Source: a virus. From it: a DNA stretch of 34,239 bases. The notes under the pieces were generated by a model. The model did not search any database. It saw nothing but the letters and a program-made list of their open reading frames with translations, and was not told where the DNA came from. The stretch covers positions 1 through 34,239 of IMG/VR virus record IMGVR_UViG_3300042430_000659; one strand, 5' to 3'. Both the position numbers and the translations under genes were made by a program. Positions 4,958-23,093 of the stretch are shown here, in pieces; within the stretch, counting starts at the first letter, position 1, and the number at the start of each line of letters is the position of its first letter.

Positions 4958-7900
4958 ATGTCAGACACTGGTGATCTCACGGCAAAAATAGGAATTGATG
5001 CAAGCGTCACTGGCGCTGAGTCCGTTTCTGCATTGGCGGCAGGTGTTGGCGGTCTATCACAGCAACTACTTCAATTATCTCAAAGTGCAATACAAAATAC
5101 TAATGTTCAGACTCAGTTAAATTCGGTTTTAAAAGCAACAAGATCTAGTGTTGGCGTTTTGGGGTCATCCATTGCTATATATCGTAAAGAGCTGGCTCTA
5201 TCTAATTCAATGGTGCGTCAGAATACAGCATCACTTCTTGCCCTAGATGCGGCGCAAAAGAAGGTTACTGCTAGCGGTAAAATGACTTCCTCGTTAAGTT
5301 CATCGTATGCTCAAACAGCCAGCCATCTCAATTCAATGAATTCATCCGTTGGTACTTTAAATAAGACGATGAAATCAAATGCTATTGAGTCCTTTGGTAA
5401 AAGACTACAACAGTCTGGTATTCAAAGTCAAAGAGTTGGTATGCAGATGGCAAGAAATGTTACCTTGCCATTAATTGGTATATTCAGAACTGCATTTTTT
5501 AGTTATACAAGATTAGAAAGAGAGCAAGTTCGTCTAACAAAATTAATATCTGACGGATTTGGAACTGGAGAAGAGGCGATTATTGCGGCAAGAAAAGCTG
5601 TTGATGGACTTAACCCAGCGCTAGATCAAATTACTAGAAAATTTGGTACTTCAAGAATTTTAGTTCAAGCCCTTGCTGGTGACTTTGCTGAATTGGGTGT
5701 TCCAACAAATGCAATTACTGATTTAGCACTGTTGACAGTTCAATTGGAAAAACTTGGTAATCTTGATATTGGTCAATCTCAACAGTTTATTCAATCTATT
5801 TATCAAAATATTTTGAGAGTTAAAAGAGACTCGGCGGAGCAACAAGGATTCGTTTTTGACATAACAAATGTTGAGCAAATGAGCGACACCATTGAGCAGC
5901 TTCGTGGTCAGCTTGCGATATTTAACTTAATGGAAAATAAAACAACGCTTTCCTTGAAAGATATTGCAGATGCGTTCCCTGAAATGTCTGCCGCCGCCAC
6001 TTCTTTTGGACTATCAATGAGCTCCACGGCAGCCATGTTGGCTCCAATGGTCGCTGCTGGTTTCCAAGTTGGTGCTTCTGCAAACTCCATTAAGGTTTCA
6101 TTGCAAAGAATGGTTGCCATGACAAAACAAAATACTGGAATTGTTAGAGAACTAAATAGCGCATTAGGTGAAGAGTTTGAATACTCTGCGGGTGTTGGAA
6201 TGGAAAATATTCAAAAATTAGTTGATGGCTTTAATTCATTGCTCTCTATAAAAGGCGAGCAAGGAACTTTGGAATTATTTGCAAGACTGTTTGGTGTTAG
6301 GCAGGGTCCAAGAATGGAAACTTCTATTAGGCAGTTTGCTCAATTTCAAAAAGCACTTGAAACAACTGGGAGTGCCGAAAATGCTATAGCTAAAGAATTA
6401 GAAGATAAAGTTAATTTTAGATTAAAAGCTAATGGAATGGAAGAGGTCAGTTTAAAGAAAATATTAGATCTAACAAATTTAAATAAAGATTCAGTAGAGA
6501 AAGTGAATGGTGTTTATTCTAAAAGAGCAGTAGTAATTCAAGATGCTCAAAAAGAAGCTACGGATAGTCTTGGTAGTCTTTTCAGCGATACTAAAGACTT
6601 TCTCGCTAAAGTTGGAACGGAATCTGGAAAAGGATTCTTTATGGAAGCGGTTGGTGGAGCTGCATATGCTGGTAAGCAAATGGAGATTGAACTTCAATTG
6701 TCAATTGATACAGCCGCCACGAGGTTTGATACATTAAGAGAATCAGTCATGGGTCTTGGTCGTGCAATTGTTCCAATAGTAGATGTGGTCGTCAAAGCAA
6801 TCCTTCCTGTTGTTCAGAAAATAGAAGATTTTTTCAAAGGGCTGAGTGTAACAACTAGGAAGTTTATTGGTGCTTTTATGGGGCTTGCATTAATAATTCC
6901 AATGGTTAGCCTATTATCAAATACATTTAAAGCTTTATTTGGCGGAGCTATTAAAGGATTTGGCAGGATGTTTATGTCAACCAACGGATTGTTTGCATCA
7001 TTAAAGGGTGTTAAATCTCAGTTAATGGACATAGCGGATATCATAATTGATCCAAAAATGACGAAGGGCTTTAATTCAATGGTCCAATATGGGGATCAAG
7101 CCCTGCTGTCACAAGACCCAACTAAGGCGGGATACAGTCCGACACTCCGAGGTCGTAGGAAAATGACTCCTGATTTGTCTGGGGTTGATCAGCCAGTTCG
7201 GGAATTGATAGAGCGAGGAGGGATGCCTGATCCTAACAGCCTAGCATCTATTAAGTCTACATTGCGTGGTGCAGATAAACTTGGCTTACCCAACACCCAA
7301 GAGTTAATAGCATCTCTTGTAACAGATATGAATGATGTTCCTGCGAAGATTGCAAAAGCTTCTGCTGACGCTGTAGATAAAACTGCTAAAACAATTGCTA
7401 AAACATTAAAAGGAACGGTCTTTCAAAATAATACATTTGTGGGTAATAAATTTGGTGGTGGAGCCCCTGGTACAACTCCTGGTACGACCCCTGGATCACG
7501 CACTCCAAAATCACCAACAAGTGGTGGAACACCAGCACCGCTCTACCCAACGCCAACAGGCGCACCGATTACTACGCCAGCCCCGCTTTACCCAACACCA
7601 ACGGGCGCACCGATTACGCCTTCATCATACATACACAAACCGAATCCTCGTGGAATGTTTCCTTTGCCAACCGTACCGAATTACATTCCTCCTCCACCTA
7701 CCATCATGCATCCACAAGGTTCTTTGTTTCCAGGAAGATTGCCTATCCCTTCGGCTGCAACAATTGGAGCCCCAGTTGTCGCAACCGTAGAAAGAGCTGC
7801 GGCTGAAGCTAAAGCTCAATTGGAAGCACTCGGTACTTCTGTTGAAGAATTTAATAAGGCAGTTGCTGAAGTTCCAAAACCCGCTCGCACTAGAACACCA

Positions 7901-10900
7901 CGGGCACCTCGTGCTCCACCCGTAGTACCTGTGGAAACACCAGTAGTAACGGTGCCAGAACCTGTAGTACCAAAAACACCAAAGGTAGTAACACCAAAAA
8001 CACCAACAGTTAAAGTTAAAGCACCTAAGAGTGCTGCAGCTGAAGTTAAGAAAGCAGTAGAAACTGTTGCCAAAAATACAGTCGCTGCAGTAGAAGGAAC
8101 GGTTGGCGCTCTAACAGAAGCTTCTGCGGGTGCAACTGCAGCAGTTGAAAATGCGGCGAAGGGTGCTGGCAAGGCTGCTAAAGTCGCTACAAAGACAGCA
8201 AAAGTTGCGACTGGTCAAGGAGCTAAGGTAATACTCACCTATAAGGAAATTACTGATTTCTTTACAGCGGCTGGTCAACAATTACCTGAAGAATATGATT
8301 TCATCAGAACTGTTGATAGAGAAATTGCACTTACCAAGAAAGCTAAAACAGACTTCTTTAAAAATCTTACAAAGGAGTTTGAAAAGAAATCTACAACACC
8401 ACTAGGCAGAATTGATAGGGGCAAGTACAAGATATTTGGTGATGCAGCAAGGAACGCACCAAGCATTAAAAAACCTGCATATCTCCCTATAGTTGATCAA
8501 TTATTAACGGATAGATTAACTCCTTCTGTATCTGGTCAGAAATTGGGCGCAACACAAAAAAGTTCGTTGTTAAATTCTCGTAGCCAGATGCTACAAGGGG
8601 TAGCTGATGTATCTGGGGTAAGTAAATATGATGCTGCAAAAGCCGCAAAAGCAGCGAGAAAAGTTAGAGATGCTCAGACTTTAGCTAACGCTATATCTGG
8701 GAACATTGCAGATAGCGCTCCAGGTATTGTTCCTCCTCCTGGCGTTGAAGAGGTATACACGACAAGACCTAAAGCTGAAATTGCAGCAATAGAAAAGAGT
8801 TTGGCTGAAGCAAAATCTAACTTGAAGATTGTAGAAAAACAAGGAACTGATGTTGCTAGACAACTTGGCGGTACCTATAAAAAGCAAATAAGTGCTCTCC
8901 AAGAAGAGCTGTTGCTGGCTAAATCCGCAATTCACGAAAAATTAGTTCCTGCATCAAAAGCAACATCTCAATTACTTACCACTGAAAGCAATCTGATGCG
9001 AGAAGAAATGGCAATTCAGAACTTAACTAGTGGTAGAACAGCAAGCGGGTCTGGCATTGGACCAGATAACCCAATTAGATATGCAAATGAATTCTCAGAT
9101 CGTGTTGGCGGGATGGATAGGGTTGTAAGTCAAAAAGGCTCCCCTGTTGTTCTTCCCAAAGACATTAGGGCAAAAATATTACATGATCTTGAAATAGAAA
9201 AATTAACTCAAAAAATATTAGATTCTACTGACGAAAATATTATAAGAGATTTGAAATCTCGCTTGTCTGAAACGGCAGATGACATTCTTGATGCAGATGT
9301 AAACCTTTCGGGAAGCGATGGTAACAGAAAAGCAACTGCTGCGGAATTAAAAAAAGTTAAAAAAGAAACCGCTAGACGGATGGCTGAAAGAAAGGGTGTT
9401 GATTTAACTAAATATCTCCCAACATCAGATGAATTTGATCCAGCCGCTGAAGCCGCAATATTAAAAAATAAAAAAGTTGTTGGCGGTCTAACAGAGTTTT
9501 ATAAAGGAATTGAAAATGGCGGTGACGAGCTTGTAGCAGAACTTGCAGATATGAAAAAAGATGTTTCGCCTGCAAAAATTTCGGCTAGAGAGAAACTTGC
9601 AAAAGCTTTTGCAAGACAAAGAGAAGTACTATCTCCTTCTGGTCCTGGCGGTAGAACTGTACAACCAATCAGAAAAATAATTTCTGGAGGCATGGGGGAT
9701 TTACCAACAGGGGCTGGAGTAGGAAAGGGAGCCGCTCAGGCAGTCAAGAGCGGGTTGGTTAAAATATCAACCTTGGTTGATAAATCAATTGATGATTTAG
9801 TAGACCAGCTTCCAATTGCAAAATTTAGCAAAGTAGAAAAAGATATTATTCGCCAAGTTGCTAAAGCAACAGTTGCTGCAAAACCTCCTAAGGGTACTGG
9901 AAATGTTCTTAAATCTGGTTTTAATTTATTAAACACCCAAGTGGATGAGGCAACAGCAAAAACCATCAAGGCGGGTCTGGATAGACAAGTTCAAGATATT
10001 CTTCACACTATAGCCAAAACTCCAGAAATTCATAGCGGCGGCAAATCTGGTTATGTCGCAGCAGCAAAAGCCAAACTGGGAATGTTGTTTAAAGGAACAA
10101 ATGGAAGTGTTGCTAAGATACTCAAGAACACCACTGATTTGATTAGTTCATCTAACAATATTTTAATTGACGCTGTTGGTTCAGGAACTTTCGCCTTAGC
10201 TGGTGTAAAGGGGCAGATAAAGGGGGAACCAATAAAATCCATGACATCCCTTACTGGGGGAGGGGTGTCAGCAAGAATAAAAGCGCTTGCAGAAGAAGTT
10301 CAACAAAGAAGGTTTAACAATGCTAGAAAGGCTGTAAAGTCAAGCGAATCAGAAAGGACTGGGCAGCCAAATACCAGGAAGACAGCTAGGGATGCAGCAG
10401 CAACGGCAAGTCGTAACCAAAACGATGAAATATTAAACAGAGTACTTGGAGAGAAGCCAGAGACACCTCCATCTACAACCCCAGCGGTAACAAAGAACAT
10501 TGTTGCAACTGAGGCTAATACAGTAGCACAGGCAGAAAATACAGGGGCGACTCAAGCAGCAACAACGGCGGAAGTGAAAGATAAAACAGTAACTACAGCG
10601 TCCAGTACTGCAACAGAGGTAAAGACAGCAGCAACTAATGCATCAGCTGCAACAATCGTAATGTCTAAGAGAGGCGAAGAGCTTATGCAAAAAGCCAACG
10701 CCCTGTTGGCTGGTGCAAAATTTAAGAATGTTGCAGCAATTGACGCATTAATTTCATCGTATACAGCTGAGCAATTAGCGACAAAATCTGGGACAAGTTT
10801 AGTAAAGGCTAGAGATGGAGTTCGTAGTAGCCTTAATACTCTTGAAAAAGCAAAAGCAGAACTTCTAAAGAGAGAAGCGGCTACCATAAAGAATGGTCTG

Positions 10901-13900
10901 GGGGCTCAAAATAGTGCTCTTGTTGAGGCTAAGAAGAAATTAGAAATTGCAACTAAAAATGCGTCCAAGAGATTGACTGACCTTGCTAAAGCCAGCACGG
11001 TTATGACTGATTCATTAAAGGCAGCATCAATACCAGTAACAACAAAACCAGCAAAAGTGGCACCAGCAGCGGCGGCAGCAGCGGCACCGTTTTATCCAAC
11101 GCCAACAGGAGCCCCAATACCAAAAGCACCTAGTGCAAGTCGGAAGGTTAATGTAGGCAGTCTTCCTGCTGGAATGAAAATTGCTCCTACAGATAGCGGA
11201 GTTATTAAAAAGCTTGGTGAATTGGCTGTTAGTTTTGACAAGTCTCTTGCCAACTTCTTTAAAGGACCAAACTTCTTTCAAGGTCCAAACATATTCCAAG
11301 GTAAAATAATTTCAGCCGACAAGTTGAAAATAAATATAACCGACAAGGCAAGAGATTCAGCAAGGCTCGCTTCAGCGAGAAGTGGTTTGGCTCCATACAC
11401 CGATCCATTGGTTATGAGGGCTTCACGAAGAAAAACACTTGGAGTAGTTCGTAAGAAAATACTTGATGATGGCGGGGCGATTGATGATGTAAGGGCGGCA
11501 AAGCTTAGAAGAATTACGGGTATAGATCCACGCAGAACTGTTGGCGCAACTTCTGCTGTCCCAATGACTAGACCAGTATTTGGTCCAGCCTTGCCAACAC
11601 CACCTGCCGCTGCAATACCAAAAGTAACTGCTTTTTCTGGTATTAAATCAAAGATAGATGATGTTACTAAGGGTGTAGCTAAGTTGGGCAGTATGTTTAG
11701 TAATGTTCTGCCAAAGGCAATGCATGTTACTGCTACAGCAGCCGTAAAGTCGTTTAACGCTGTTGGTCGTGCCGTAGCTTCATCGTATGCTGTTAATGCT
11801 GTTAGAGCCATGACTGGTGGATTAAAGGTTGTAGGCTCAACGGCTGACATGTTAGCAGATGGTTTTAGAAAGTCTGCTGGAGCGGTTAGAGTATTTAATG
11901 CTATAAACAATGCAACAATCACAACAATTAAATCAATGGGTGCCGCTGGTCTTGTAACTAAGACTATCACAGGTGATATGGCGTGGGCTTTTGGAAAACT
12001 GGGTAAGATATTAGGTTCAACTGTTAATGTAGAAATGAAAGCATTCCTTATTAGTTTGCAAAGAAGTAAATTAACAAAGGCTTGGACCTTCATGTTGACT
12101 GCTGGAATGATGACATTTGTTAAGTCTTTAAGGGTAGGAATTGCACACTTAAACATATTCGCCAACACAGGGGCACGACTGGCATCTGCGAAAGCAGCCA
12201 TCGGCGGTCTTACTGCTGGAACAAGTCTCTTGCGAAAATCATTGGTCGGGTTAAATGCCTTTACAGGTCTTAGTGCTGGAATACAGGCTGCATTTAGCGG
12301 GATTTTGAAATCAGTATTGAGTGTTGTAGCTATCGTGATAAAACTTAACGCTGCTCTGTTCTTGATAGCCCCAGTGGTTTTGCTTATTACTGCAATCTTT
12401 ATTCAATTGAAGAGAGGGACTACTAATAACTCAGCGGCTTTAAAGTTGTTTAAAGAAGGAATTGTATTGGTTAAGGGAGCCATCCTTGCACTTGCAAATC
12501 CAATTCTGGATATCATAAATGCGTTTGGTGGATTTACTGGTGCTACAAACCAAACACAGAAAACCGCTGGAGCCCTATATATTATGGCACGGGCATTCAA
12601 GTCTGTATCGCAAGCATTTAATAATTTTGCCCAGGGCGCTGGTCAAAGGTTTGTAAAGAATACTTTGGGTCCAGTCATTATAAGATTGGTCAATAGATTT
12701 ATCTTGCTCGGTAGAGCAATTCGTGGAGCAATGCGTCAAGACGGAAGCGCTGGCAAGAACATGTCTGCATTCTTCCAAAGCTTGCTTTACGAAGGTCTTA
12801 ATGTTATGGCGAAGTTGTTTGATGGTCTTTCTAAATTACTTCCACACATGGGTGGAATTATTGGCACTGTAATCGGAGCGGTTGCAAAAGCAAGCATAAA
12901 GATGCTTAATCTTATTGGGAAATTTGGGATGGAAGTTGGTCTGTTCTTTGGATCTATCATAACTGGAATAGGAATAGCGTTAATCCCATTCTTCGGCATG
13001 GGTGCGGCAATTGCAACAGCTGGCGCTGCCTTGGTAGGTCTTTCACTTGCTGGTTTTGCAGCATCAAAAGCTCTAACAAAGAGTGACGCTGAAATTGATA
13101 AGTGGGCTTCTGGTGTTGGTAAGTCAGTTGCTAATGGCATGGGTTCGGCAGCTAGTGGGATGGCTGGTTTTATTAGAAAGGGAATGGATTCAATTGATAA
13201 ATCTTATGCCAAAAAGATAGGTCAAGGAATTAATAAAGCACTCGCCAGCACCGCTGGTGATCCAGATGGTTTGAAAACAGCAATACAGGAATCTTTAAAG
13301 AAAAACGCAGATGTTGCAAAATCTGGTGGTGAAGCTCTTGGCGCTGCTGCTGCTAAGGGAATGATGAAGAAAATGCAAGATATTAAGAAGACATTTACTG
13401 ATGGCTTCTTTGGCAAAGCTGACGCAGCGGTTGATAAATATGTAGATTCCCTTAAGAGGGGATTGGAGGATCAAAGAGATAAAGCACTGGAAGCATTTGA
13501 TAATCAAGCTGATGCTATCCAGGAACTTGCTGATGCAGAAGAAAGACTAACTGACAAGATTGAATATGAAGAAAAGAAGAGATTGCTTATCAAGACAAGA
13601 GCTCTTGATCAAGAAAATTACTTAAGAGAAAGGAAAGTTGCCGTCTATGAGGGTAGAACCGAAGATGTTCGTTCACTTGATTTAGCAAGTCAGAAATCAA
13701 AATCCGAGTCGGTTAAGGAAGAGAAAGACTTAGACCTTTCTAGGCTCAAAACTCTACAAGGGGAACAGCGAGATAAAGCTTTGGCTGTAATAGCAAGAGA
13801 GAAAGACCTGCTTGCTAAAGAATATGAAAAAATGTTTAGAGATTTTGATGATCAAATTGAAAAGATTAAAACTGTCGGTTTCTCTACTGAAGATGAATTT

Positions 13901-16900
13901 AAAACTCTGCTTTCAAGATTAGGCGGTGCATCTCAAACATTCTCTGACGCAATAACAAGTACATTCTCAACCTCAATGCTGGCGTTACCAACTGCAATTA
14001 GAGATAACACTGACTCATCAATCGGTATGTTCACTGTATCAATGGATGCGTTAGTCGCTGAGGCGCAATCTAAGTTTGGTGCAGCGAACGGAACAGCTAA
14101 TTCAACATCAATACTTGGTGCTGCATACATGCTGGCTACTGGATTGCCAGATGCTTTTAAAACTGCATTCAATGATGGAATAATTGCACAATTCGTAACT
14201 CCTTGGAGTTCTGCAGTGACTGCAGATATTTCAGGGATTATCCCAGCAAACTTATGGGTTGAAGCTGCTGGTCTTGCTCTAATTGAAATGGTTAATTCTC
14301 TAAAGCGAGAACTTGTTGGGCTAAAGGGTACTCTTTGGAATGATTTTAAGAAAATATTTGAAGCTACTTCTGAAGCTGATTTTGCTTCAATATTTGGACC
14401 TGCGCTTGCTGGTCTAGAAGATGTTAAGAAATACATGACGGGATTGTTTGATGAAATAAAGCAAATCGCTTCAGATATCAATTTGATTGAAGTAAGCAGA
14501 GAGCAACAATCTGGTGGTGGTGGAGATGAGGCAAAGAAGCCAGCTGGCGGTGCTCTTCCTGGTGAGGCTTCCTATGTTCCGTCTGCTTATGATAGATTTG
14601 AAATCAGAAGAGGTAGGGGGCTGGCTGACAGAAATAAGATTACCCCGCCTGTTAGCGATAGTGGTACCGAGAAATCTGGCGGCGGTTTCTTTGGCGGAAT
14701 TAAAGATGCTGCTATTGGCTTGGCTGATCAATTAGGTGCTGTTAAGACTGCAATATTAGGAGCAGTTGGCGCTATTGCTGGATTTTTTGTACTGCAAGCA
14801 GTGTTTGGATTTATATCAACTGTTATGGGCGTTATTGCTGGTGCGCTCTTAACGGTATCAATAGGGGCAGCAGCCATAGTCGCTGCAGTCGGAATAGTTA
14901 TTGGATTATTCATTTATCTTTATATCAAGGTTAAAGGATTTAGAGATTTTGTTAATGGCGCTTTCATAGCCGCTTGGGAAGCGCTTGGAACCGTTATTGG
15001 TTTCGTATGGGATGGAATAAAGACAGGGGTAAGTAATTCACTTGATGCTGTCAAAAATTTTGTACAAAATGCTTTAGATTTCATGAAAGATGTTTGGGGT
15101 GCAATTGGTGGAATTGTTGAAGATACCTTTAAGAAAATCATTTCTTTCTTTGTTGATGGATTTAATGCCCTAAAAGATAACATCGGGGGCTTCGTTGATA
15201 GCTTTATTAACTTGTTCAAGGGTTTCTGGGGGGCTATCGGGGATGGTATTAAGACTATTGCTGATCCTATAATGGAACTTTTGGGTAAAATTGGAATTGC
15301 TATTGGAATTGCTATTGGCGCAATAGTTGCTTTTGCTGGCGGTATTGTTGTCGTAATTGTAAATATTTTTGACAAAATAAAAGGTCCACTGTTTTCTGTA
15401 ACTGGTTTTATTATTGATATTTTCTCAAAAATATTTGATATCGCTACACCAATAGTTGAAATTGGTATTGGCGCTATAGCTAAGTTAATAGCCCTTCCGT
15501 TTGAAATATTAAATACAGTAATTGATATAGCAGTGGGTGCAATAAAGATTGCAATTGATATTATTGTTGGGGTATTTAATGTTCTGTTTGATGTTTTCAA
15601 GGCTATTGCTTCTAATCCAATTGTAGTCTTCTTTGCTCGCCTAGCTGCATTGCTTGGTTTGGTAGCGGCAATTGCTGCAACATGGACAATTAAGATTGTT
15701 CTTGAATCTACATGGTATGTTATTAAGAAAGTTGTTGGTGCCCTTATTGATCTTGCTGAATTTATTGTTGGAGGTCTCGTAGGGGCGTTTAATATAATTA
15801 AAGATGTAGCTGTTGCAGCATGGGACTTTATTTATGATAAAGTTAAGGGGTTTGTTGATTGGTGGCATGAGAACATTGGTAGTTTGTGGTTAATATTTAC
15901 CGCACCAGTTGTTATAGCGTATGAAGCAATTATGTGGTTATTTGATACAGTAAAAAATAATCTTGGTCCAATACTCTCAAGCGTATGGGATGGGTTTAAG
16001 TCTGCAATTGATGTTGTTTGGGAAGTTATGAAGAAAGTATCATCATGGATTGGCACAGCATTTGGTGCAGCCTGGGGAGTGCTGAAAAAAGCTGCTTCTC
16101 TGTACTGGGATTACTTAAGTTTTGTTATTCCTCTGCTGTGGGATACTTTGAAGAAAGTAGCATCATGGATTGGAGCAGCGTTTTCAAAAGTTTGGGATGT
16201 TATTAGTTATGTTGCAACAAACGCTTTCCAAATACTTGGTGATGCAATTAGTATTTTCTGGGGAATAATAACTAGTGGTTACGATTTTATAAAGCCAGTA
16301 TTTGATTGGATTGCAGACACTGTTGGAAATGTAATTAAGACTTATGTTGAAATACTACAAATTGCATTTAGCCTTCTGTGGAACGGCATTATGGCTGGTT
16401 ACGATTTTATTAAGCCAGTGTTTGATTGGATTATGGACATTGTTGGGAATATAATTTCAACACAAGTTGAAGGTCTAAAGAAAATATTTGGTTTCTTGTG
16501 GGATGGTATCAAGGCTGGTTGGGACTTGGTAGGTCCAATATTTGGCTTGATGGCGGATATTATTGGAAAGGTAATTAAACAAGCAATTGACGATGTAAAA
16601 TTTGTATGGGATTTGTTATGGCAGGGGATACAAATTTCTTGGACTTTCCTTGAGCCGATATTTAATTTTATTAAAGATGCTATTACAGGTGGAATTGGTT
16701 TAGCAATTGACTTAATCAAAGCAGGATGGGACTTATTTGTAGCTGCGCTAACTAATACAAAAGATTTCATCATGGGTGTAATTGGCAGTATTGGCGGGTT
16801 CATTAAGGAAAAGATACAAGTTGTAATTGAAAATTTAATAGGCGTATGGAATGGATTAAAAACTGCATTCAGCACAGTATGGGGTGTTATAGAGCCGATT

Positions 16901-17602
16901 ATTTCTAAGATCGGAGGTGCAATCAAGAGTGTAATTGGTGGAGCTATTGATTTCATTTCATCTGCAATTTCAGCAATACCGCAAGCGTTCAAGATAGTTG
17001 TTAATAGTATCGGTGGGTTGTTCAACAGGGCTGTTGACCTGCTCGGTAATTTCGCATTCCCGAAGACTATCTTGGGAATCCCACTTCCTTTCATTGGAGG
17101 AAAGAAGGTAAGCGACTTTATCCCTCTTCCAAAAATTCCTACTCTGTATAGCGGCGGAAAAGTTGGAATGTACATGAAGGGTGGAATGGCGTATGGTACT
17201 GGTGGTATGACAAACGGTCCAGTTCAACAAGGTATCCCAGCGATATTGCACGGAGGGGAATATGTTATTAATCATAAAGCTGTGCAAAGAATTGGCACTG
17301 ACACGCTAGAAAGATTGAATAACTATAAGCTTTCAAAGCCAAACTTGCCGAGCATGCCATCTGTTCCTAGAATCAACATGCCAGGTGCTGGAATTAATGC
17401 TCCACAATACGCACAATCTGGAACTGCGTCTAGTTCAACGCAAAATGTAAATATCTTTGTTGAGAATTTCATTGGTGAGCCAGAGTGGTTTAACGGAATG
17501 ATGAAAGACTACAACACAAAAGTTTTGCCAAGAAATCAAAAAGCTGCTGGAGTGCAAAGCAGAGTTGTAAGCACATACAACGGGATTAATAAAGGTCTAT
17601 AA
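4958..17602 (+). CDS. Giant tail tape measure protein
   Basis: At 4214 residues this protein sets tail length; at about 0.15 nm per residue it implies a tail near 600 nm. Residues ~170-460 match the TP901-type tape measure core (FGTSRILVQALAGDFAELG, ADAFPEMSAAATSFGLSMSS). Hydrophobic segments lie near 637-660, 2447-2484, 2658-2698 and 3261-3328. A Pro-rich linker (~850-1030) carries the motif YPTPTGAPI twice, and it recurs near 2045. Residues ~2825-2970 form a charged coiled coil. Six tandem 40-residue Trp-rich repeats lie at ~3690-3929. The C-terminus (GPVQQGIPAILHGGEYVINH, ~4088) is a common tape measure ending. I see no lysozyme or peptidase motif. It starts without a ribosome binding site. 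Confidence 0.95.
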   Translation: MSDTGDLTAKIGIDASVTGAESVSALAAGVGGLSQQLLQLSQSAIQNTNVQTQLNSVLKATRSSVGVLGSSIAIYRKELALSNSMVRQNTASLLALDAAQKKVTASGKMTSSLSSSYAQTASHLNSMNSSVGTLNKTMKSNAIESFGKRLQQSGIQSQRVGMQMARNVTLPLIGIFRTAFFSYTRLEREQVRLTKLISDGFGTGEEAIIAARKAVDGLNPALDQITRKFGTSRILVQALAGDFAELGVPTNAITDLALLTVQLEKLGNLDIGQSQQFIQSIYQNILRVKRDSAEQQGFVFDITNVEQMSDTIEQLRGQLAIFNLMENKTTLSLKDIADAFPEMSAAATSFGLSMSSTAAMLAPMVAAGFQVGASANSIKVSLQRMVAMTKQNTGIVRELNSALGEEFEYSAGVGMENIQKLVDGFNSLLSIKGEQGTLELFARLFGVRQGPRMETSIRQFAQFQKALETTGSAENAIAKELEDKVNFRLKANGMEEVSLKKILDLTNLNKDSVEKVNGVYSKRAVVIQDAQKEATDSLGSLFSDTKDFLAKVGTESGKGFFMEAVGGAAYAGKQMEIELQLSIDTAATRFDTLRESVMGLGRAIVPIVDVVVKAILPVVQKIEDFFKGLSVTTRKFIGAFMGLALIIPMVSLLSNTFKALFGGAIKGFGRMFMSTNGLFASLKGVKSQLMDIADIIIDPKMTKGFNSMVQYGDQALLSQDPTKAGYSPTLRGRRKMTPDLSGVDQPVRELIERGGMPDPNSLASIKSTLRGADKLGLPNTQELIASLVTDMNDVPAKIAKASADAVDKTAKTIAKTLKGTVFQNNTFVGNKFGGGAPGTTPGTTPGSRTPKSPTSGGTPAPLYPTPTGAPITTPAPLYPTPTGAPITPSSYIHKPNPRGMFPLPTVPNYIPPPPTIMHPQGSLFPGRLPIPSAATIGAPVVATVERAAAEAKAQLEALGTSVEEFNKAVAEVPKPARTRTPRAPRAPPVVPVETPVVTVPEPVVPKTPKVVTPKTPTVKVKAPKSAAAEVKKAVETVAKNTVAAVEGTVGALTEASAGATAAVENAAKGAGKAAKVATKTAKVATGQGAKVILTYKEITDFFTAAGQQLPEEYDFIRTVDREIALTKKAKTDFFKNLTKEFEKKSTTPLGRIDRGKYKIFGDAARNAPSIKKPAYLPIVDQLLTDRLTPSVSGQKLGATQKSSLLNSRSQMLQGVADVSGVSKYDAAKAAKAARKVRDAQTLANAISGNIADSAPGIVPPPGVEEVYTTRPKAEIAAIEKSLAEAKSNLKIVEKQGTDVARQLGGTYKKQISALQEELLLAKSAIHEKLVPASKATSQLLTTESNLMREEMAIQNLTSGRTASGSGIGPDNPIRYANEFSDRVGGMDRVVSQKGSPVVLPKDIRAKILHDLEIEKLTQKILDSTDENIIRDLKSRLSETADDILDADVNLSGSDGNRKATAAELKKVKKETARRMAERKGVDLTKYLPTSDEFDPAAEAAILKNKKVVGGLTEFYKGIENGGDELVAELADMKKDVSPAKISAREKLAKAFARQREVLSPSGPGGRTVQPIRKIISGGMGDLPTGAGVGKGAAQAVKSGLVKISTLVDKSIDDLVDQLPIAKFSKVEKDIIRQVAKATVAAKPPKGTGNVLKSGFNLLNTQVDEATAKTIKAGLDRQVQDILHTIAKTPEIHSGGKSGYVAAAKAKLGMLFKGTNGSVAKILKNTTDLISSSNNILIDAVGSGTFALAGVKGQIKGEPIKSMTSLTGGGVSARIKALAEEVQQRRFNNARKAVKSSESERTGQPNTRKTARDAAATASRNQNDEILNRVLGEKPETPPSTTPAVTKNIVATEANTVAQAENTGATQAATTAEVKDKTVTTASSTATEVKTAATNASAATIVMSKRGEELMQKANALLAGAKFKNVAAIDALISSYTAEQLATKSGTSLVKARDGVRSSLNTLEKAKAELLKREAATIKNGLGAQNSALVEAKKKLEIATKNASKRLTDLAKASTVMTDSLKAASIPVTTKPAKVAPAAAAAAAPFYPTPTGAPIPKAPSASRKVNVGSLPAGMKIAPTDSGVIKKLGELAVSFDKSLANFFKGPNFFQGPNIFQGKIISADKLKINITDKARDSARLASARSGLAPYTDPLVMRASRRKTLGVVRKKILDDGGAIDDVRAAKLRRITGIDPRRTVGATSAVPMTRPVFGPALPTPPAAAIPKVTAFSGIKSKIDDVTKGVAKLGSMFSNVLPKAMHVTATAAVKSFNAVGRAVASSYAVNAVRAMTGGLKVVGSTADMLADGFRKSAGAVRVFNAINNATITTIKSMGAAGLVTKTITGDMAWAFGKLGKILGSTVNVEMKAFLISLQRSKLTKAWTFMLTAGMMTFVKSLRVGIAHLNIFANTGARLASAKAAIGGLTAGTSLLRKSLVGLNAFTGLSAGIQAAFSGILKSVLSVVAIVIKLNAALFLIAPVVLLITAIFIQLKRGTTNNSAALKLFKEGIVLVKGAILALANPILDIINAFGGFTGATNQTQKTAGALYIMARAFKSVSQAFNNFAQGAGQRFVKNTLGPVIIRLVNRFILLGRAIRGAMRQDGSAGKNMSAFFQSLLYEGLNVMAKLFDGLSKLLPHMGGIIGTVIGAVAKASIKMLNLIGKFGMEVGLFFGSIITGIGIALIPFFGMGAAIATAGAALVGLSLAGFAASKALTKSDAEIDKWASGVGKSVANGMGSAASGMAGFIRKGMDSIDKSYAKKIGQGINKALASTAGDPDGLKTAIQESLKKNADVAKSGGEALGAAAAKGMMKKMQDIKKTFTDGFFGKADAAVDKYVDSLKRGLEDQRDKALEAFDNQADAIQELADAEERLTDKIEYEEKKRLLIKTRALDQENYLRERKVAVYEGRTEDVRSLDLASQKSKSESVKEEKDLDLSRLKTLQGEQRDKALAVIAREKDLLAKEYEKMFRDFDDQIEKIKTVGFSTEDEFKTLLSRLGGASQTFSDAITSTFSTSMLALPTAIRDNTDSSIGMFTVSMDALVAEAQSKFGAANGTANSTSILGAAYMLATGLPDAFKTAFNDGIIAQFVTPWSSAVTADISGIIPANLWVEAAGLALIEMVNSLKRELVGLKGTLWNDFKKIFEATSEADFASIFGPALAGLEDVKKYMTGLFDEIKQIASDINLIEVSREQQSGGGGDEAKKPAGGALPGEASYVPSAYDRFEIRRGRGLADRNKITPPVSDSGTEKSGGGFFGGIKDAAIGLADQLGAVKTAILGAVGAIAGFFVLQAVFGFISTVMGVIAGALLTVSIGAAAIVAAVGIVIGLFIYLYIKVKGFRDFVNGAFIAAWEALGTVIGFVWDGIKTGVSNSLDAVKNFVQNALDFMKDVWGAIGGIVEDTFKKIISFFVDGFNALKDNIGGFVDSFINLFKGFWGAIGDGIKTIADPIMELLGKIGIAIGIAIGAIVAFAGGIVVVIVNIFDKIKGPLFSVTGFIIDIFSKIFDIATPIVEIGIGAIAKLIALPFEILNTVIDIAVGAIKIAIDIIVGVFNVLFDVFKAIASNPIVVFFARLAALLGLVAAIAATWTIKIVLESTWYVIKKVVGALIDLAEFIVGGLVGAFNIIKDVAVAAWDFIYDKVKGFVDWWHENIGSLWLIFTAPVVIAYEAIMWLFDTVKNNLGPILSSVWDGFKSAIDVVWEVMKKVSSWIGTAFGAAWGVLKKAASLYWDYLSFVIPLLWDTLKKVASWIGAAFSKVWDVISYVATNAFQILGDAISIFWGIITSGYDFIKPVFDWIADTVGNVIKTYVEILQIAFSLLWNGIMAGYDFIKPVFDWIMDIVGNIISTQVEGLKKIFGFLWDGIKAGWDLVGPIFGLMADIIGKVIKQAIDDVKFVWDLLWQGIQISWTFLEPIFNFIKDAITGGIGLAIDLIKAGWDLFVAALTNTKDFIMGVIGSIGGFIKEKIQVVIENLIGVWNGLKTAFSTVWGVIEPIISKIGGAIKSVIGGAIDFISSAISAIPQAFKIVVNSIGGLFNRAVDLLGNFAFPKTILGIPLPFIGGKKVSDFIPLPKIPTLYSGGKVGMYMKGGMAYGTGGMTNGPVQQGIPAILHGGEYVINHKAVQRIGTDTLERLNNYKLSKPNLPSMPSVPRINMPGAGINAPQYAQSGTASSSTQNVNIFVENFIGEPEWFNGMMKDYNTKVLPRNQKAAGVQSRVVSTYNGINKGL
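7532..7620 (+). repeat. 45-base Pro-rich direct repeat in tape measure gene
   Basis: Two adjacent copies of a 45-base unit encode PAPLYPTPTGAPIT. The first begins at 7532 and the second at 7577, differing mostly at third codon positions. A third copy (FYPTPTGAPI) lies about 3.5 kb downstream at 11085-11125, so the module moved or was copied within the gene. Confidence 0.8.
16025..16744 (+). repeat. Six tandem 120-base repeats in tape measure gene
   Basis: The unit is exactly 40 codons, beginning at 16025, 16145, 16265, 16385, 16505 and 16625. Most units end in a Leu-Leu-Trp-like motif. Units 1 and 2 share MKKVSSWIG / LKKVASWIG, and units 3 and 4 share GYDFIKPVFDWI, near-identical in DNA. This indicates growth by tandem duplication, a simple route to change tail length. 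Confidence 0.85.
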
Positions 17603-17997
17603 TGAATACTAATTCTTTATTCAAAATAAATGGAACATTTATTACAGAGCATGGAAGAAAGCTGTCTATAACCGAAGAGATTGCGGCTAATGATGTTGAT
17701 CTTGCATCTGGTCATAGAAGAAGATTCTTCACAACTAATAAGAGATCATTTCAAATAACTTGGTCGTATCTTCCAGACAAAGTTGATAAATCAGTTGACA
17801 GTAAAGCTGGCAGGACTTTTTTGTTTAACTTGGCAAATACATCTTCAACGGCTTCTGTCCAAGTTGAGCTTGAACCGAACGCTGGTCTTACGGAATACAC
17901 CTGCTATGTTGACTCCTATAGCGAATCGGTTATTAGAAGAGATTTAAAAACTGGTTGTACTTATTATGATGTCTCATTGACATTGAAGGAGCGCTAA
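17602..17997 (+). CDS. Tail-tip protein, short paralogue
   Basis: The 131-residue product overlaps the tape measure stop by one base (TAATG). It occupies the distal-tail-protein position straight after the tape measure. The sequence is beta-rich, with RRRFFTTNKRSFQITWSYLP near residue 38 and SESVIRRDLKTGCTYYDVSL at the C-terminus. The same pattern recurs in the last ~130 residues of the next gene, so the two are paralogues from a tandem duplication. It probably forms part of the ring joining the tail tube to the tip. That role is inferred from order, not from a recognised domain. Confidence 0.7.
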   Translation: MNTNSLFKINGTFITEHGRKLSITEEIAANDVDLASGHRRRFFTTNKRSFQITWSYLPDKVDKSVDSKAGRTFLFNLANTSSTASVQVELEPNAGLTEYTCYVDSYSESVIRRDLKTGCTYYDVSLTLKER

Positions 17998-17999
17998 AC

Positions 18000-19082
18000 A
18001 TGGCAGACAGTTTCTATAGTTTTAGCGAACCTCTTAATAGTGGTGTAGATTTCTTTACTGCTGATGATGTTGAAGCAGTATCTATTGCGGTAGCTGGTGA
18101 TATTAGCGTTACAGTTAATGCAATAAGATTGTTATCTATTTCGGCAAATTTATCTGCTGATGCAACGGCAACAGTTGCCGCTACAAGAATGGTTCTTGCT
18201 TCGGCAAATATTTCTGACTTACTATCAGCAACTGCAACCGTTGGCACAAATATTAGGGAAGGGGCGTTAATTGTTATTAGTGCAACTTCTTCACTAACTG
18301 CGTCAAGTACAAAAATAGCATATGCTTCATCTGCAATAAATTGCACAACAAGTGTTGCGGCGTTAGCAGTGAAAACAGCACTGGCTGTATCTGCAATAAG
18401 CTCGGCGGCTTCAATTGTTACATCTATGGTAAAAACAGCTCGTGGTGCCGCTAATGTGGTTGTATCGTCTAATTTATCTGCAATACCAAGGAAGATAATC
18501 TTTGCGTCTACTGCGTTAAGTTCAAATGTATCGTTGTCAGTTGCTGGTAAACTAATTCTAATAACAATCAAGATAGTCCTGCAGAATGTGGGGTCAGTAT
18601 CTGCTACAGCAGTAAAGTTTGCTACATCGGCAATTGCTGGGATTGTAAATATTGATGATTCATTAATTAGAACTTTCCTTTTGCTGGACGAGTCCCCGAT
18701 AACCAATCATAATAGAACTATTGATATGAGTGTTGAGCCGATCTTTACTGAAGTAAAGAACTGGAATAACCGATCCAGTAGATACTATAAGTCTTCATCT
18801 AGGGCTGCAAGAAGGACTTTTAATTTGTCATGGTCTTGGCTCCCTAATTCCAACTCATCAACTGTTGATGGCAAAAAAGGTCGGGACTTTATAAAGGATA
18901 TAGCATCCGACCCCAGATCGCATGTTCTTAAAATAATAAATTTAGATGATTCTGGGACAACTCCATACACTGAAACGAGTTATAATGTATTAGTGAAAGA
19001 TTATAGCGAAACTTTAATCAGAAGAGATATTGAAAATGGTGTGTATTTTTGGGATTGTTCAATAAGTTTAGAGGAAGTTTAA
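18000..19082 (+). CDS. Tail-tip protein with ~20-residue repeat array
   Basis: The 360-residue product has GGAG at 17988-17991 as ribosome binding site and lies two bases after its paralogue. About residues 20-220 form an array of eight or nine degenerate repeats of 19-22 residues, almost all Ala, Ser, Thr, Val and Ile. Most repeats are marked by one Lys or Arg (starts such as KIAYASSAINC, KTALAVSAISS, RKIIFASTALSS). This looks like a stacked beta structure. The last ~130 residues (FNLSWSWLP, GRDFIKDIA, DYSETLIRRDIENGVYFWDC) match the preceding protein. It is thus a tip module with an inserted or fused repetitive domain, which could project or span. No enzyme motif is visible. Confidence 0.75.
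   Translation: MADSFYSFSEPLNSGVDFFTADDVEAVSIAVAGDISVTVNAIRLLSISANLSADATATVAATRMVLASANISDLLSATATVGTNIREGALIVISATSSLTASSTKIAYASSAINCTTSVAALAVKTALAVSAISSAASIVTSMVKTARGAANVVVSSNLSAIPRKIIFASTALSSNVSLSVAGKLILITIKIVLQNVGSVSATAVKFATSAIAGIVNIDDSLIRTFLLLDESPITNHNRTIDMSVEPIFTEVKNWNNRSSRYYKSSSRAARRTFNLSWSWLPNSNSSTVDGKKGRDFIKDIASDPRSHVLKIINLDDSGTTPYTETSYNVLVKDYSETLIRRDIENGVYFWDCSISLEEV
18060..18660 (+). repeat. Array of degenerate ~60-base coding repeats
   Basis: Eight or nine in-frame units of about 57-66 bases each encode a Lys/Arg followed by strand-forming Ala/Ser/Thr/Val residues. The units are clear at protein level but strongly diverged in DNA, so the array is old. Confidence 0.65.
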
Positions 19083-22000
19083 ATGCTCCAATACGGCTTA
19101 TATGACAAACAAATTTCAGACTCTTTTAACTCCGCTTCATCTGCGATTTCTCAAAGAATCAAACCACTCATCCTAGTTGATTGGCTGGACAGCAGGCATA
19201 TTGAAAAAAACGCTAATGTTGAAATTGCTTCAAGTAATTATACTGTCTCGCAACTAAGTAATGCAACTGTAATTCTTAATGCTACAGGGATGCTATCCAA
19301 TGGAAGATCTCTATCAAATAAAGAAGTGCAGTTTAATCAGTCTAGGCAGAGGGATTTTTATTTTACTCCAAATGAGTCAATTAATGGCATAGAACGCCAG
19401 TCATTTACATGGGGTGTGTGTGATGCAAAAGATATTAATGGCAAAGTAATCACAGCAAATGGTCAATGGCATTGTCTTCCAGCAAATAAGGATGATAATT
19501 ACGAATTTGGATATCAGTCATCAACCAAAAGTTTGTCAAATACCCATGCTACGCTTAATGGATACGGGTTTACTGATCCAGTTATTTTGACATATGTTTT
19601 TACAGAGCGTAAAGTCAATCTATTAAAAATTATAACATCTGAATATAATGGTCAAATTAAATCATATAATATTAAAGCATATAATCAAACAGTAAACTTA
19701 ATATACAATGAGGATGCAGAAATACCAGACGAATTATATTATCACGAGCATTTTCTTGAAGGGGTAACTTCAAATGATATTAATAAAATTGTCTTAACTA
19801 TTTATACGACAAAGAACCCCCTAGATTACGCAAGGGTAAACGAAGTATCTCCAATATACCAGGTTGATATGACTGACTATGTTATTGACTCTGGTGTTTC
19901 TAAGGTGAGAGATGTCCATGAAACCAGTTTGCCAATTGCTGGAACTGGAAGCTCAACAGCATCATTAAGCTTTGATAATACAGAAAAGGATTTTAATTTA
20001 TTCAATTCCTCGTCTTCATTTGGCAAATATATGAAAAAAGATATCAGGGTTCATATTTATGCTGGATGGGAGATTCATCCATCAACAAATGTCGTGGTTA
20101 ATGCAGTCCTCTCAAATACAATAACTAGTTCCTCCACAGTCTGGAGTGTCAACAGCGTTGCAGGCTTCCCTGCAGGCGGTGGTAATAATGATTATATTTT
20201 AACTATTGATGATGGAACAATAAATAAAGAAAGAGTATTGGCTAGGAAAGGTACTGGAAACTCATTTGATGTGATCCAGCGAGGCTACGGCGGAACTATC
20301 GGTAGAGCTCATACCGCTGGCGCTGCCATAGTTTTTGATATATTTGAATATGTTCCGTATGGGGTGTTTTATGTTGACGAATGGCAGGGCTCCTCATCTA
20401 GCATGGTTGTTAGCGCATCACTTACCGACAGAAGTAAGTTCGGTAATGAAAAAATGGTGACTAAAGGTTTCTTACTTCAGGAATCTACAGTCGCAGAAGC
20501 GGTAGAACATTTATTATTAATGACAAATTATCCAAGAGCTGACATAGAATACTTATTGAATCCTAGAAAAACATCTGTAAAAGATGGGGCTATTTTGCAT
20601 TTGGGTTTTGATGAGAAAAGCGTAGACAGAGCTAGTTCTGCAAGAATTGTTTCTACATCGCTACGGGCTCGCTTTGTTGAAATACCAGATACAGATCTTA
20701 ATTCGGTCAGGGATATTAAGCTTGATGCTAATGATCGCAATTTATCAACATATGAAAAAGCTTTGGATATCAGGGGCTACATAGCTCCATCTTTAACGAC
20801 AACTACAAAGCAAATATCAACAAGCAATACTTATGCGTTGAGATATACATCTGGTCAATTTACATCAATAGCCAACACGGTGGTTGATAGTTACTTCAAT
20901 GGAGTTTTTGATGGCTACTATGTTCCAGACCAAACTGGTAATAGAGCTATTGTTATTGATATTAATAAAGGCGGAGTTCGTGTTTATTTAAACAAAGAAA
21001 AAATTATTGATAAATGGTATGTCGTTGATTCTGGGTCAAACGCAGAAGTTGTAATTTCATCAGACGAGTATTATTTAACGGCAGGTCAACCTTACGAATT
21101 GAGAATTGAATTCTTTACAGAGCAAAAGATTACAGGTGAATTGTTTACAATATCGTTGAGTACAGAATATAACAGTACATTGTCTTATGTTGCTGCTTCA
21201 GAATGTTACTCAATGGTTGCCAACGATAAAATTGGTGTTAAAAGTGAAACATCTTATTTAACATTTTCATCTAATTCATGGACTCCTACTGCGAATGTCA
21301 ATATAATTGAAAGGTCTGCAAGAAGGAATGATGCGATATATATTGGGAGTGTGAAAATATCAGAGCCATCTGGTGTTGTCTCTGATAAAGATAGCCGAAG
21401 CATTTTACTTGAATCAAATTCATATCTACGGCTTCCTTACCATTCTTCTTATGATTTCTCAAACACATCAAGTTCAATCCACACTGGTGAATTCTCAATA
21501 GAGATGTTTGCTAAATTTAACGCTGGATCTTTTTCTTCCGATGGTGAGTATGTAAGTAATTGGAATAATTCATCATCAACATCTGGGTTTGAATTTTTCA
21601 ATAACTCATCAGGTAATGGGTTTAAAATTAAGACTTTAGCGGCAAACTCAGTTGTTATGACAGAAACTGTCTCTTCCAACACTGCTCTTTCCAATAGTTC
21701 ATTCAGCCATGTCGCTGTTACTTATGAGCCTGGGGAGCTTAAGTATTTTATCAACGGTGTATTGAAAGATACAGAGGTGATAGAGGGGACTCCTATCTCA
21801 TGGGCATCAAAGAGTTTAACATTTGGCGGAAGAGGGGCAACATTTGCGGCTGGAGTAGAGTCACCACCTGCAAGCATTAGAAGTTTATGTTTAGATGAGT
21901 TTATTTTATACAATAATTGTTTGTCCGAGGCGGATGTTCTAAATCATTACATAGAAACACAAATGCAACCAGCTCAAGTCATGCCGTTTATCTATGGTAA

Positions 22001-23093
22001 TGATGCAACTGTTCAATCAATAATAGACGATATCAGCCTAGCCGATCTTGGTCGTTTCTATATTGACGAAAGAGAGATTGCTAGATACGAGCATTACAAT
22101 AGATTCTTTGAATCATCTATTGATCAACATGCCAACACTCAGCACACACTTAACGATTCAACAAATATAATTGAAGCAAGTTACAATGTTCAATTGCAAA
22201 CAAATAAGGTTGTTATTAAAGTTAGCGGTATTGCAAATAATTTAATTTTTAAACAAGGATTGTGGCGAGCAGAAGACCCTACTACACTGGGAGTGACATC
22301 GCTCTCGTCAAACATATCTAATTCTTCCACCAGTATGAATGTGACATCAACAGATAGCCCATTCTTTCCAAAATCTGGTTATTTGATGATTGACGATGAG
22401 ATTGTAAAGTATAGTAACACATCAAGTAATTCATTTATAACAATGGAGAGAGCGCAATTTGACACTCCTGCCGCTTCACATACATCGGGGGCTTTAGTTC
22501 GTGAAGTGAAAAACTATGACTTATTGTTTGATAAAGCCCCAGCTTTTAAAGTTGAAAACCCCTTAATTACAAACTTAAGTTTGACTAAGCCAGCAAAGAT
22601 AGATTTAATTAAATATAATCCAACACCATTTGGTGCTAAATTGATTCTTGCTGCTTCAAATAATGTGGTTTCTGGAGAAATCGTTTATGTTGAAGGTAAA
22701 AACCCACTTACCGATGAAGCCCACTTTGCCTCTATAGCTGGAATACCAGTGGTTGTAACAGACAAGACTGGGGATGTTAAAGAAAAGAAAGCTACTCTTG
22801 ATGATAATATCAGGAGATATGGTCTAAAAGAAGTAATCATAGAAAACCAATTCATTACTGACCTAGATTACGCTCAATCTTTGGCTACTTTTATAATAAA
22901 CAAAATGAGCGAGCCAGTCCCTGTACTTAATTTGACCATAATGCCTTTGCCTAAATTACAGCTTGGAGATAGAATAAGAATATCCTCAATGGATTCATTT
23001 GATATAATAGATGGAGACTATTGGGTTATTAGTGCTGACTTTTCCTTTAATGGCGGAGCAACACAATCAATAGTTGCAAGGAAGGTCGTGTAA
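19083..23093 (+). CDS. Tail hub/adhesin protein with PA14-like and LamG-like domains
   Basis: The 1336-residue protein begins directly after the previous stop, with GAGGAAG as ribosome binding site. Residues ~598-707 resemble a PA14 domain (FDGYYVPDQTGNRAIV, GGVRVYLNKEKIIDKW), and ~772-960 a LamG/concanavalin-type domain (GEFSIEMFAKFN, HVAVTYEPGELKYFINGVL, LDEFILYNNCLSEADV). Both folds commonly bind carbohydrate, suggesting surface-glycan recognition. A module with DGTINKERVLARKG at ~340-418 recurs near 1068-1141 (DDEIVKYSNTSS). The C-terminus (LQLGDRIRISS, DGDYWVISADFSF) resembles actinophage minor tail proteins. The whole is probably the central tip and receptor-binding protein. Function is inferred from domains and order. 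Confidence 0.8.
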   Translation: MLQYGLYDKQISDSFNSASSAISQRIKPLILVDWLDSRHIEKNANVEIASSNYTVSQLSNATVILNATGMLSNGRSLSNKEVQFNQSRQRDFYFTPNESINGIERQSFTWGVCDAKDINGKVITANGQWHCLPANKDDNYEFGYQSSTKSLSNTHATLNGYGFTDPVILTYVFTERKVNLLKIITSEYNGQIKSYNIKAYNQTVNLIYNEDAEIPDELYYHEHFLEGVTSNDINKIVLTIYTTKNPLDYARVNEVSPIYQVDMTDYVIDSGVSKVRDVHETSLPIAGTGSSTASLSFDNTEKDFNLFNSSSSFGKYMKKDIRVHIYAGWEIHPSTNVVVNAVLSNTITSSSTVWSVNSVAGFPAGGGNNDYILTIDDGTINKERVLARKGTGNSFDVIQRGYGGTIGRAHTAGAAIVFDIFEYVPYGVFYVDEWQGSSSSMVVSASLTDRSKFGNEKMVTKGFLLQESTVAEAVEHLLLMTNYPRADIEYLLNPRKTSVKDGAILHLGFDEKSVDRASSARIVSTSLRARFVEIPDTDLNSVRDIKLDANDRNLSTYEKALDIRGYIAPSLTTTTKQISTSNTYALRYTSGQFTSIANTVVDSYFNGVFDGYYVPDQTGNRAIVIDINKGGVRVYLNKEKIIDKWYVVDSGSNAEVVISSDEYYLTAGQPYELRIEFFTEQKITGELFTISLSTEYNSTLSYVAASECYSMVANDKIGVKSETSYLTFSSNSWTPTANVNIIERSARRNDAIYIGSVKISEPSGVVSDKDSRSILLESNSYLRLPYHSSYDFSNTSSSIHTGEFSIEMFAKFNAGSFSSDGEYVSNWNNSSSTSGFEFFNNSSGNGFKIKTLAANSVVMTETVSSNTALSNSSFSHVAVTYEPGELKYFINGVLKDTEVIEGTPISWASKSLTFGGRGATFAAGVESPPASIRSLCLDEFILYNNCLSEADVLNHYIETQMQPAQVMPFIYGNDATVQSIIDDISLADLGRFYIDEREIARYEHYNRFFESSIDQHANTQHTLNDSTNIIEASYNVQLQTNKVVIKVSGIANNLIFKQGLWRAEDPTTLGVTSLSSNISNSSTSMNVTSTDSPFFPKSGYLMIDDEIVKYSNTSSNSFITMERAQFDTPAASHTSGALVREVKNYDLLFDKAPAFKVENPLITNLSLTKPAKIDLIKYNPTPFGAKLILAASNNVVSGEIVYVEGKNPLTDEAHFASIAGIPVVVTDKTGDVKEKKATLDDNIRRYGLKEVIIENQFITDLDYAQSLATFIINKMSEPVPVLNLTIMPLPKLQLGDRIRISSMDSFDIIDGDYWVISADFSFNGGATQSIVARKVV

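Follow-up and report, generated by a model that had tools for sequence, protein, structure and literature searches.

An exchangeable array of 20-residue repeats on a probable second Dit-like ring protein of a virus tail tip

The window analysed here is the whole stretch of 34,239 bases (GC 39%) from virus record IMGVR_UViG_3300042430_000659, and it carries tail, tape measure, tip and replication genes. A giant tape measure protein of 4214 aa (4958..17602, + strand), recognised by the PHROGs tail length tape measure families (best E 2.9e-35), lies upstream of the tip genes and is followed by a short single-domain gene of 131 aa (P0002, 17602..17997, +; phrog_1194, E 1.5e-4), which we refer to as the short ring gene. 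Next come the 360-aa protein that is the main subject here (P0001, 18000..19082, +), an open reading frame with dN/dS below 1 in relatives, and a minor tail protein of 1336 aa in the Tal position (19083..23093, +), which matches phrog_10359 (E 8.4e-23) and, above cut-off, PF07691 and PF13385. The order is thus tape measure, short ring, array ring and Tal-position gene, with the array gene as the second of two ring genes, and the short ring gene lies directly upstream of it, -1 to 3 bases off, in 93 of 104 locus entries, the remaining 11 being cut by a contig end (some contigs enter this tally repeatedly).

Several other features of the locus are recorded here. The tape measure gene holds tandem repeats of 120 bases x 2.0 (16276-16520) and 45 bases x 1.9 (7532-7617) by Tandem Repeats Finder, and residues 3963-4158 of its product match phrog_971, a family named endolysin (E 1.6e-17), possibly as a cell-wall-degrading or a shared tail domain. 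The Tal-position protein has a PA14 domain at residues 599-692 and a LamG-like domain at 797-952, both candidate carbohydrate-binding parts of the tail tip. The tail fibre gene that comes after it (23093-24712) is 40-85% identical over its first 150 residues in 8 relatives, namely those whose alignment covers 75% or more of that part (an identical copy excluded), and 24-32% identical in its remainder, where some alignments are partial or at chance level. An antisense open reading frame of 230 aa (18014-18706, minus strand) overlaps P0001; the longest antisense frame ranges from 59 to 230 aa across 53 proteins, counted per gene and not matched one to one, and because of this variation the frame is probably a composition effect.

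The C-terminal domain of P0001 (residues 221-360, 18660..19079, +) is homologous to the neighbouring short ring protein, of which it is a paralogue. Alignment of the C-domain profile with that of the short ring gene by hhalign gave a probability of 99.8 and E 1.2e-29, and when P0001 was compared by blastp with the relatives' short genes, E values were about 1e-14 to 1e-16. The domain also aligns with Streptomyces phage proteins at E 1.2e-14, both hhalign results being drawn from shallow alignments. A tail-tube/Dit/Hcp-type fold is predicted for it, a call of moderate strength given a pLDDT of 36-77 by 10-residue block in the ring part. The C domain accounts for 32 of the best 50 VIA rows (Z 8.0-9.6), and all 32 belong to phage or SaPI tail, tube, tip, neck or baseplate proteins, contractile injection systems or tailocins, a gene transfer agent, or Hcp. 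Foldseek with the full model returned a best E of 9.2e-4, the sole PDB match below 0.001, with SPP1 Dit at E 0.029, and a viral structure library returned a protein of Streptomyces phage Yaboi at E 9.4e-7. Profile searches of the PDB gave a best E of 0.42 for the ring and no match for the short ring protein.

In published descriptions the ring domain of Dit is a split barrel of the kind seen in Hcp and the major tail proteins, and lambda gpM is a Dit made of the ring alone (PMC7291167), without a galectin or OB domain. The ring genes of the window (17602-19082) resemble siphophage Dit and lambda gpM in their placement, between the tape measure and Tal-position genes, and, with moderate confidence and by prediction, in their tail-tube/Hcp-like fold. 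Unlike siphophage Dit, however, the window has two ring genes in tandem, the second with an N-terminal repeat arm, and unlike many Dits P0001 carries no C-terminal galectin or OB domain, ending with the ring domain at residue 360. Also close is phrog_1194, a minor tail protein of Streptomyces phages (Stanwilliamsviridae), which shares the homologous domain and the same position after the tape measure; in the tip loci of the Streptomyces phages Beuffert and Sollertia there is a single ring gene of 133 and 131 codons, respectively, too short to hold an array and directly preceding the next minor tail gene. P0001 is therefore regarded as a probable ring protein, the second Dit-like one of the tail tip, and its likely history is that the ring gene was duplicated and the second copy gained the N-terminal array. 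A preliminary description of this DNA, made from its letters, had proposed a fusion to a tip protein after a giant tape measure, and this holds, the fused part being a duplicated domain of Dit/tail-tube type.

The same description placed at 18060-18660 an array of eight or nine Ala/Ser/Thr/Val repeats, most of them marked by a single Lys or Arg, and in all these points it was correct. P0001 begins with a conserved cap (residues 1-22, 18000..18065, +; YSFSEPLNSGVDF-type, from an alignment of 21 relatives), continues with nine units of about 20 residues (residues 23-205, 18066..18614, +), which periodicity and profile tests support and whose limits are our own reading (starts at about residues 23, 43, 63, 85, 105, 125, 145, 165 and 184), and passes through a junction of the form GK-I/L-x-L-x-T-I-x-I (residues 184-222, 18549..18665, +; by alignment), which overlaps unit nine, into the ring. 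Lys and Arg stand at residues 43, 63, 86, 105, 125, 145, 148, 164, 165, 184, 191 and 206, the main series being spaced 19-23, and in 20000 random placements their phase concentration at the best period of 20.5 was reached twice. At lag 20 the residue similarity gives a z of 4.73, and 1000 composition shuffles did not go beyond 4.06 at any lag tested; there is a further peak at lag 62 (z 3.84) and a dip at lag 17 (z -2.96). A three-unit profile from relatives, built without the lineages of the window and of L004, scored 54.0 bits on the window array, compared with -18.3 for the reversed array and -6.9 for the best of 2000 shuffles. The array is thus real and beyond chance at the protein level, and its trace in the DNA is nearly erased: Tandem Repeats Finder found nothing at the array, and there are short partial matches only, two of these lying 60 bases (20 codons) apart. 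The unit profile found no second array among the 21 open reading frames of the window, its match to P0001 being by construction.

By our tally the family comprises at least 62 distinct long proteins on 86 contigs (one search for relatives gave the best 80 of 96), and 59 of the 60 arrays tested have their best lag at 20 or 40, 2 of the 62 proteins being too short for the test. In 65 non-redundant three-unit windows, which were picked with K/R exactly 20 apart so that position 1 is fixed by construction, hydrophobic residues make up 81-83% at positions 2, 9 and 15 (mostly I, I/L and L/V), 66% at positions 3 and 5, and 17-24% at positions 10, 12 and 14. This pattern resembles that of beta structure, and the alternation shows best over positions 9 to 16. 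In the longest arrays (L050, L184 and L187) the charged residue is often Glu, so that where the charge sits seems to matter more than its sign. The fourth unit (P0001 residues ~82-92) has an unusually charged turn, such as IREGAL, ERQDAL or IKNAEI, in many of the 21 aligned relatives. Among the 55 distinct proteins whose start lies away from a contig edge, the N-terminal part is 140-141 residues long in 4, 190-199 in 2, 210-239 in 46, 399 in 2 and 464 in 1. The unit profile, which misses irregular units, finds 4, mostly 6-9, 14 and 18 matches by length class, from which we estimate about 5, 8, 9, 18 and 21 units by length, with a constant period and a variable count.

No named domain had been recognised in the array by the preliminary description, and the searches bear this out. 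P0001 matched neither Pfam nor PHROGs at E up to 1. Its relatives gave scattered weak matches to PHROGs (14 families with E of 1 or less among 12 members, the best at 0.0065 in one of the 12) and nothing above cut-off in Pfam (best E 0.035, again in one of 12), and no Pfam carbohydrate-binding domain appeared in P0001 or the family members scanned. Profile searches of the PDB reached a best E of 0.89 with the whole of P0001, and with the array alone two matches, 2kyb_A at E 0.013 over 47 residues and then 4opw at E 1.5, so a confident match to a known domain was not obtained. No description of this repeat or its context was found by title or abstract within open-licence PMC text. A tblastn search of 50,697 phage records with P0001 gave no match at E 0.01, and a pattern scan of genome contigs picked out 12 stretches, none of them confirmed as a relative, so that neither search pointed to a host.

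Structure prediction gives the array a beta-like character at low confidence, in keeping with the stacked-strand look noted earlier. The AlphaFold2 model of the full protein has a mean pLDDT of 48.7, with 28-59 by 10-residue block in the array, and that of five units a mean of 42.7; about two strands per unit are predicted, spaced ~10 residues apart in the five-unit model and, beyond about residue 76, in the full one, whose first two strands are 16 residues each (37-52 and 57-72). The array alignment used 141 of 157 candidate family windows (the others being set aside for poor register, near-duplication or row selection) and all 6 Venkman-type windows, described below. Adding register-shifted windows to deepen the alignment to 148 rows, in which 9651 of 10441 aligned residues are exactly in phase, did not raise the confidence, and for this reason no fold is claimed for the array. 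The five-unit model ranked 4opw first (Z 7.4, rmsd 2.4, 101 residues), and the array of the full model resembles beta-helices (Z 8.8-11.1, 18 of the best 50 VIA rows), both being low-confidence models, and such Z values often arise from the repeat arrangement alone. PDB 4opw is a putative adhesin that we take to belong to DUF2807, the GIN-head family. PF10988 (DUF2807) is absent from the matches of the window family and its gathering score was not reached; among 12 Venkman-type proteins it gives matches below threshold in 4 (best E 0.093), and on this type YdbH-like (0.0055) and Bflower_3 (0.0073) score better. The resemblance to DUF2807 and 4opw, seen in non-significant profile matches and low-confidence model matches, is thus a lead and not a membership. 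Triple beta-spirals of fibre shafts have a 15-residue repeat in a trimer, and differ in period from the 20 residues found here.

Two other views of such a segment bear on these data. A disordered low-complexity linker would account for the low pLDDT and the A/S/T-rich composition, but it sits badly with a 20-residue period in nearly every array tested, with strongly hydrophobic positions 2, 9 and 15, with one Pro and seven Gly in 202 residues and with predicted strands every ~10 residues, and we think it very unlikely; as to the prediction of a disordered linker, against which the preliminary description had set its reading, plain disorder is not predicted, although model confidence is too low to exclude it by prediction alone. 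A membrane-active segment inserting at DNA ejection, which is how its membrane-seeking guess may be put, would explain the low charge and the many aliphatic residues, but Kyte-Doolittle hydropathy rises above 1.6 in only 6 windows of 19 residues, taken with starts from residue 20 to 203 (maximum 1.77), and a charge about every 20 positions together with many Ser/Thr suits beta units better than membrane helices; the sequence exchange described next would also be unexpected in such a role, which we consider highly improbable.

The array is an exchange cassette, swapped as a block among phages with different tail backbones. Compared with the relative L004, the window differs at 13 of 558 bases in 18000..18557 (+), at 157 of 396 in the upstream flank (17601-17999) and at 150 of 510 in the downstream flank (18558-19082); in 60-base bins identity is 93-100% inside the cassette and 45-82% outside, and the cassette runs from the start codon to an edge at 18558 (residue 187). 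L006 shows the same pattern, which is less marked in L021, with 42 of 558 bases differing inside; L020 is an identical copy of the window across the compared segments. The pattern is inverted against L011, L014 and L015, with 59-63% identity in 18057-18557 and about 90% on both sides. In protein terms, window and L004 are 98% identical in the array, 55% in the short ring, 72% in the ring and 63% in the Tal start, and window and L014 are 47%, 94%, 99% and 97% identical, respectively. A second case is provided by L031, whose array is 95% identical to that of L027, a phage with another backbone (56/68/59% in the short ring, ring and Tal start), and only 34% identical to that of L029, which has the same backbone (88/96/96%).

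These cases were set against 1176 pairs formed by 49 of the 62 distinct long proteins (N-terminal part 185-239 residues, length at least 320; L036 and L170, cut by a contig end, included). Array identity of at least 80% with ring identity of at most 80% occurs in 6 pairs, all from these two cases, and ring identity of at least 93% with array identity of at most 65% occurs in 18. Array and ring identities still correlate (Spearman 0.80), so exchange is only occasional. The array also changes much faster than the ring: over 12 pairs of relatives its dN/dS is 0.12-0.68, compared with 0.00-0.16 in the ring, all below 1. These values are rough, given the difficulty of aligning diverged arrays and a saturated dS (2.9) for one of them. 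Between window and L004 the array is not higher, at 0.12 (4 nonsynonymous changes) against 0.13 for the ring. The array is not the sole variable piece, as the end of the tape measure varies too (74% identity between window and L015, 62-86% in four other close pairs).

This turnover may be read in more than one way. The array could be a passive spacer or collar that sets a distance or stiffens the tip, in which only length and beta character matter and weak constraint lets drift and recombination act; high turnover could indeed reflect weak constraint on a spacer. The length, nearly constant in 46 of the 55 proteins while the array falls to 34-47% identity on near-identical backbones, fits a length requirement as well as it does adhesion and is therefore compatible with both, and the Pfam scans of P0001 and relatives contain no ligand-binding signature. 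Sharp-edged transfer of the whole array between distant backbones, in two cases, nevertheless exceeds drift, although recombination alone is no proof of selection, and N-terminal parts of other lengths do exist (140 residues in 4 proteins, 190-199 in 2, 399 in 2, 464 in 1); a spacer is a possible explanation that we hold to be the less probable one. An adaptor for the phage's own variable tail fibre, with turnover that tracks the fibre, would be in keeping with the low identity of the distal fibre, several of whose alignments are partial or at chance level, and with the Dit arm or loop that is reported to carry receptor-binding proteins in phages p2 and 80alpha (PMC7291167). In L021, however, the only array donor checked that reaches the fibre gene, the array is 89% identical to that of the window and the fibre parts 53% and 28%, and an adaptor appears unlikely. 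The swapping of the array as a block by related phages suggests contact with something variable, such as host surface material, and this exchange pattern leads us to favour an adhesion arm over a passive spacer, as it does the adhesin among the roles guessed at in the preliminary description, the stalk being a further candidate.

A like repeat is found in phages of Methylophilales. A tblastn search with L050 (E 0.01) reached gp51 of Methylophilales phage Venkman, described as the first OM43 phage isolate (PMC8163748), and there are at least 79 viral loci of the gp51 type (from the best 80 of 82 relatives). The profile of the window family scored above the 99th percentile of shuffles on 58 of 61 gp51-type sequences, with a median of 20.0 bits against 5.1 for the best of 1216 scored shuffles. 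Reversed copies passed the same threshold in 17 of 61 cases (median -6.4, best 20.1), and without composition correction the real sequences passed in 61 of 61 and the reversed in 39 of 61; since reversed copies also score, part of the score reflects general alternation. The spacing of unit matches in the gp51 type is most commonly 20 (108), then 40 (32) and 21 (30), and 54 of the 57 arrays tested have 20 as their best lag. The window repeat has the same period and register as this type, Venkman gp51 consisting of 20-residue repeats in a similar register (R/K-I-x-F-A/G-x-A-S-I-S-x-T-A-T-V-T-A-x). Unlike the window protein, gp51 has no ring domain, has a W-rich C-terminus (EEWTDVP..TW) and belongs to a different tail locus. 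Many gp51-type proteins (L071:4863-5579, L127-L150) end in EEWTDVP...TW. In public records the repeat is annotated as 'E3 ubiquitin-protein ligase HERC6' or 'serine-rich adhesin', and a PDB profile search with the Venkman type gave a best E of 1.0. We take the window and gp51 arrays to share a repeat design and, likely, a common descent.

Taken together, the reading we prefer, at a probability of roughly 0.5, is that P0001 is a second Dit-like ring protein of a siphophage-like virus, bearing an outward, mobile array arm for accessory adhesion. In this model the C domain (residues ~221-360) would build a tail-tip ring, with the short ring protein on one side of it and the Tal-like protein on the other, and the N-terminal ~205 residues would mainly form an arm of nine 20-residue beta units, possibly stacked, of about two predicted strands each, in which hydrophobic and Ser/Thr positions tend to alternate and one charged residue may lie at the turn. 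The arm would be present in several copies that spread outwards from the tip, their number being six for a hexameric ring. The arm, swapped between phages with different tail backbones and changing much faster than the ring, may contact a host- or strain-variable partner, most likely host surface material, and so provide accessory adhesion by analogy with the 'evolved Dit' of lactococcal and other phages, in which a Dit-like protein likewise has a module present only in some lineages (PMC7291167, PMC10688798). The carbohydrate-binding modules of evolved Dits lie in loops of the C-terminal galectin domain, whereas P0001 has 20-residue repeats at the N-terminus in which no such module is recognised; one evolved Dit insertion is reported to have made lactococci that bear exopolysaccharide open to infection again and to have raised adsorption to them slightly (PMC10688798). 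Against an adhesion arm we count the lack of a carbohydrate-binding signature, the low-confidence fold and the presence of other variable pieces. The preliminary interpretation is thus partly supported, with the duplicated ring domain and the cassette exchange added to it.

More tentatively, these arrays may represent an undescribed phage adhesion repeat, consisting of ~5 to 21 stacked 20-residue beta units, carried by various tail-locus proteins and traded as a cassette to alter tip binding. If so, it would occur on a duplicated ring protein in one phage group and on other tail-locus proteins elsewhere, including those of Methylophilales phages. Here a protein of no annotated family has been resolved into a ring domain and an arm, and the like repeat in other phages merits a family model of its own. 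Tail-tip modules help to decide which bacteria a phage adsorbs to, and the natural arm swaps between otherwise different phages offer ready-made pairs for testing what the arm may bind.
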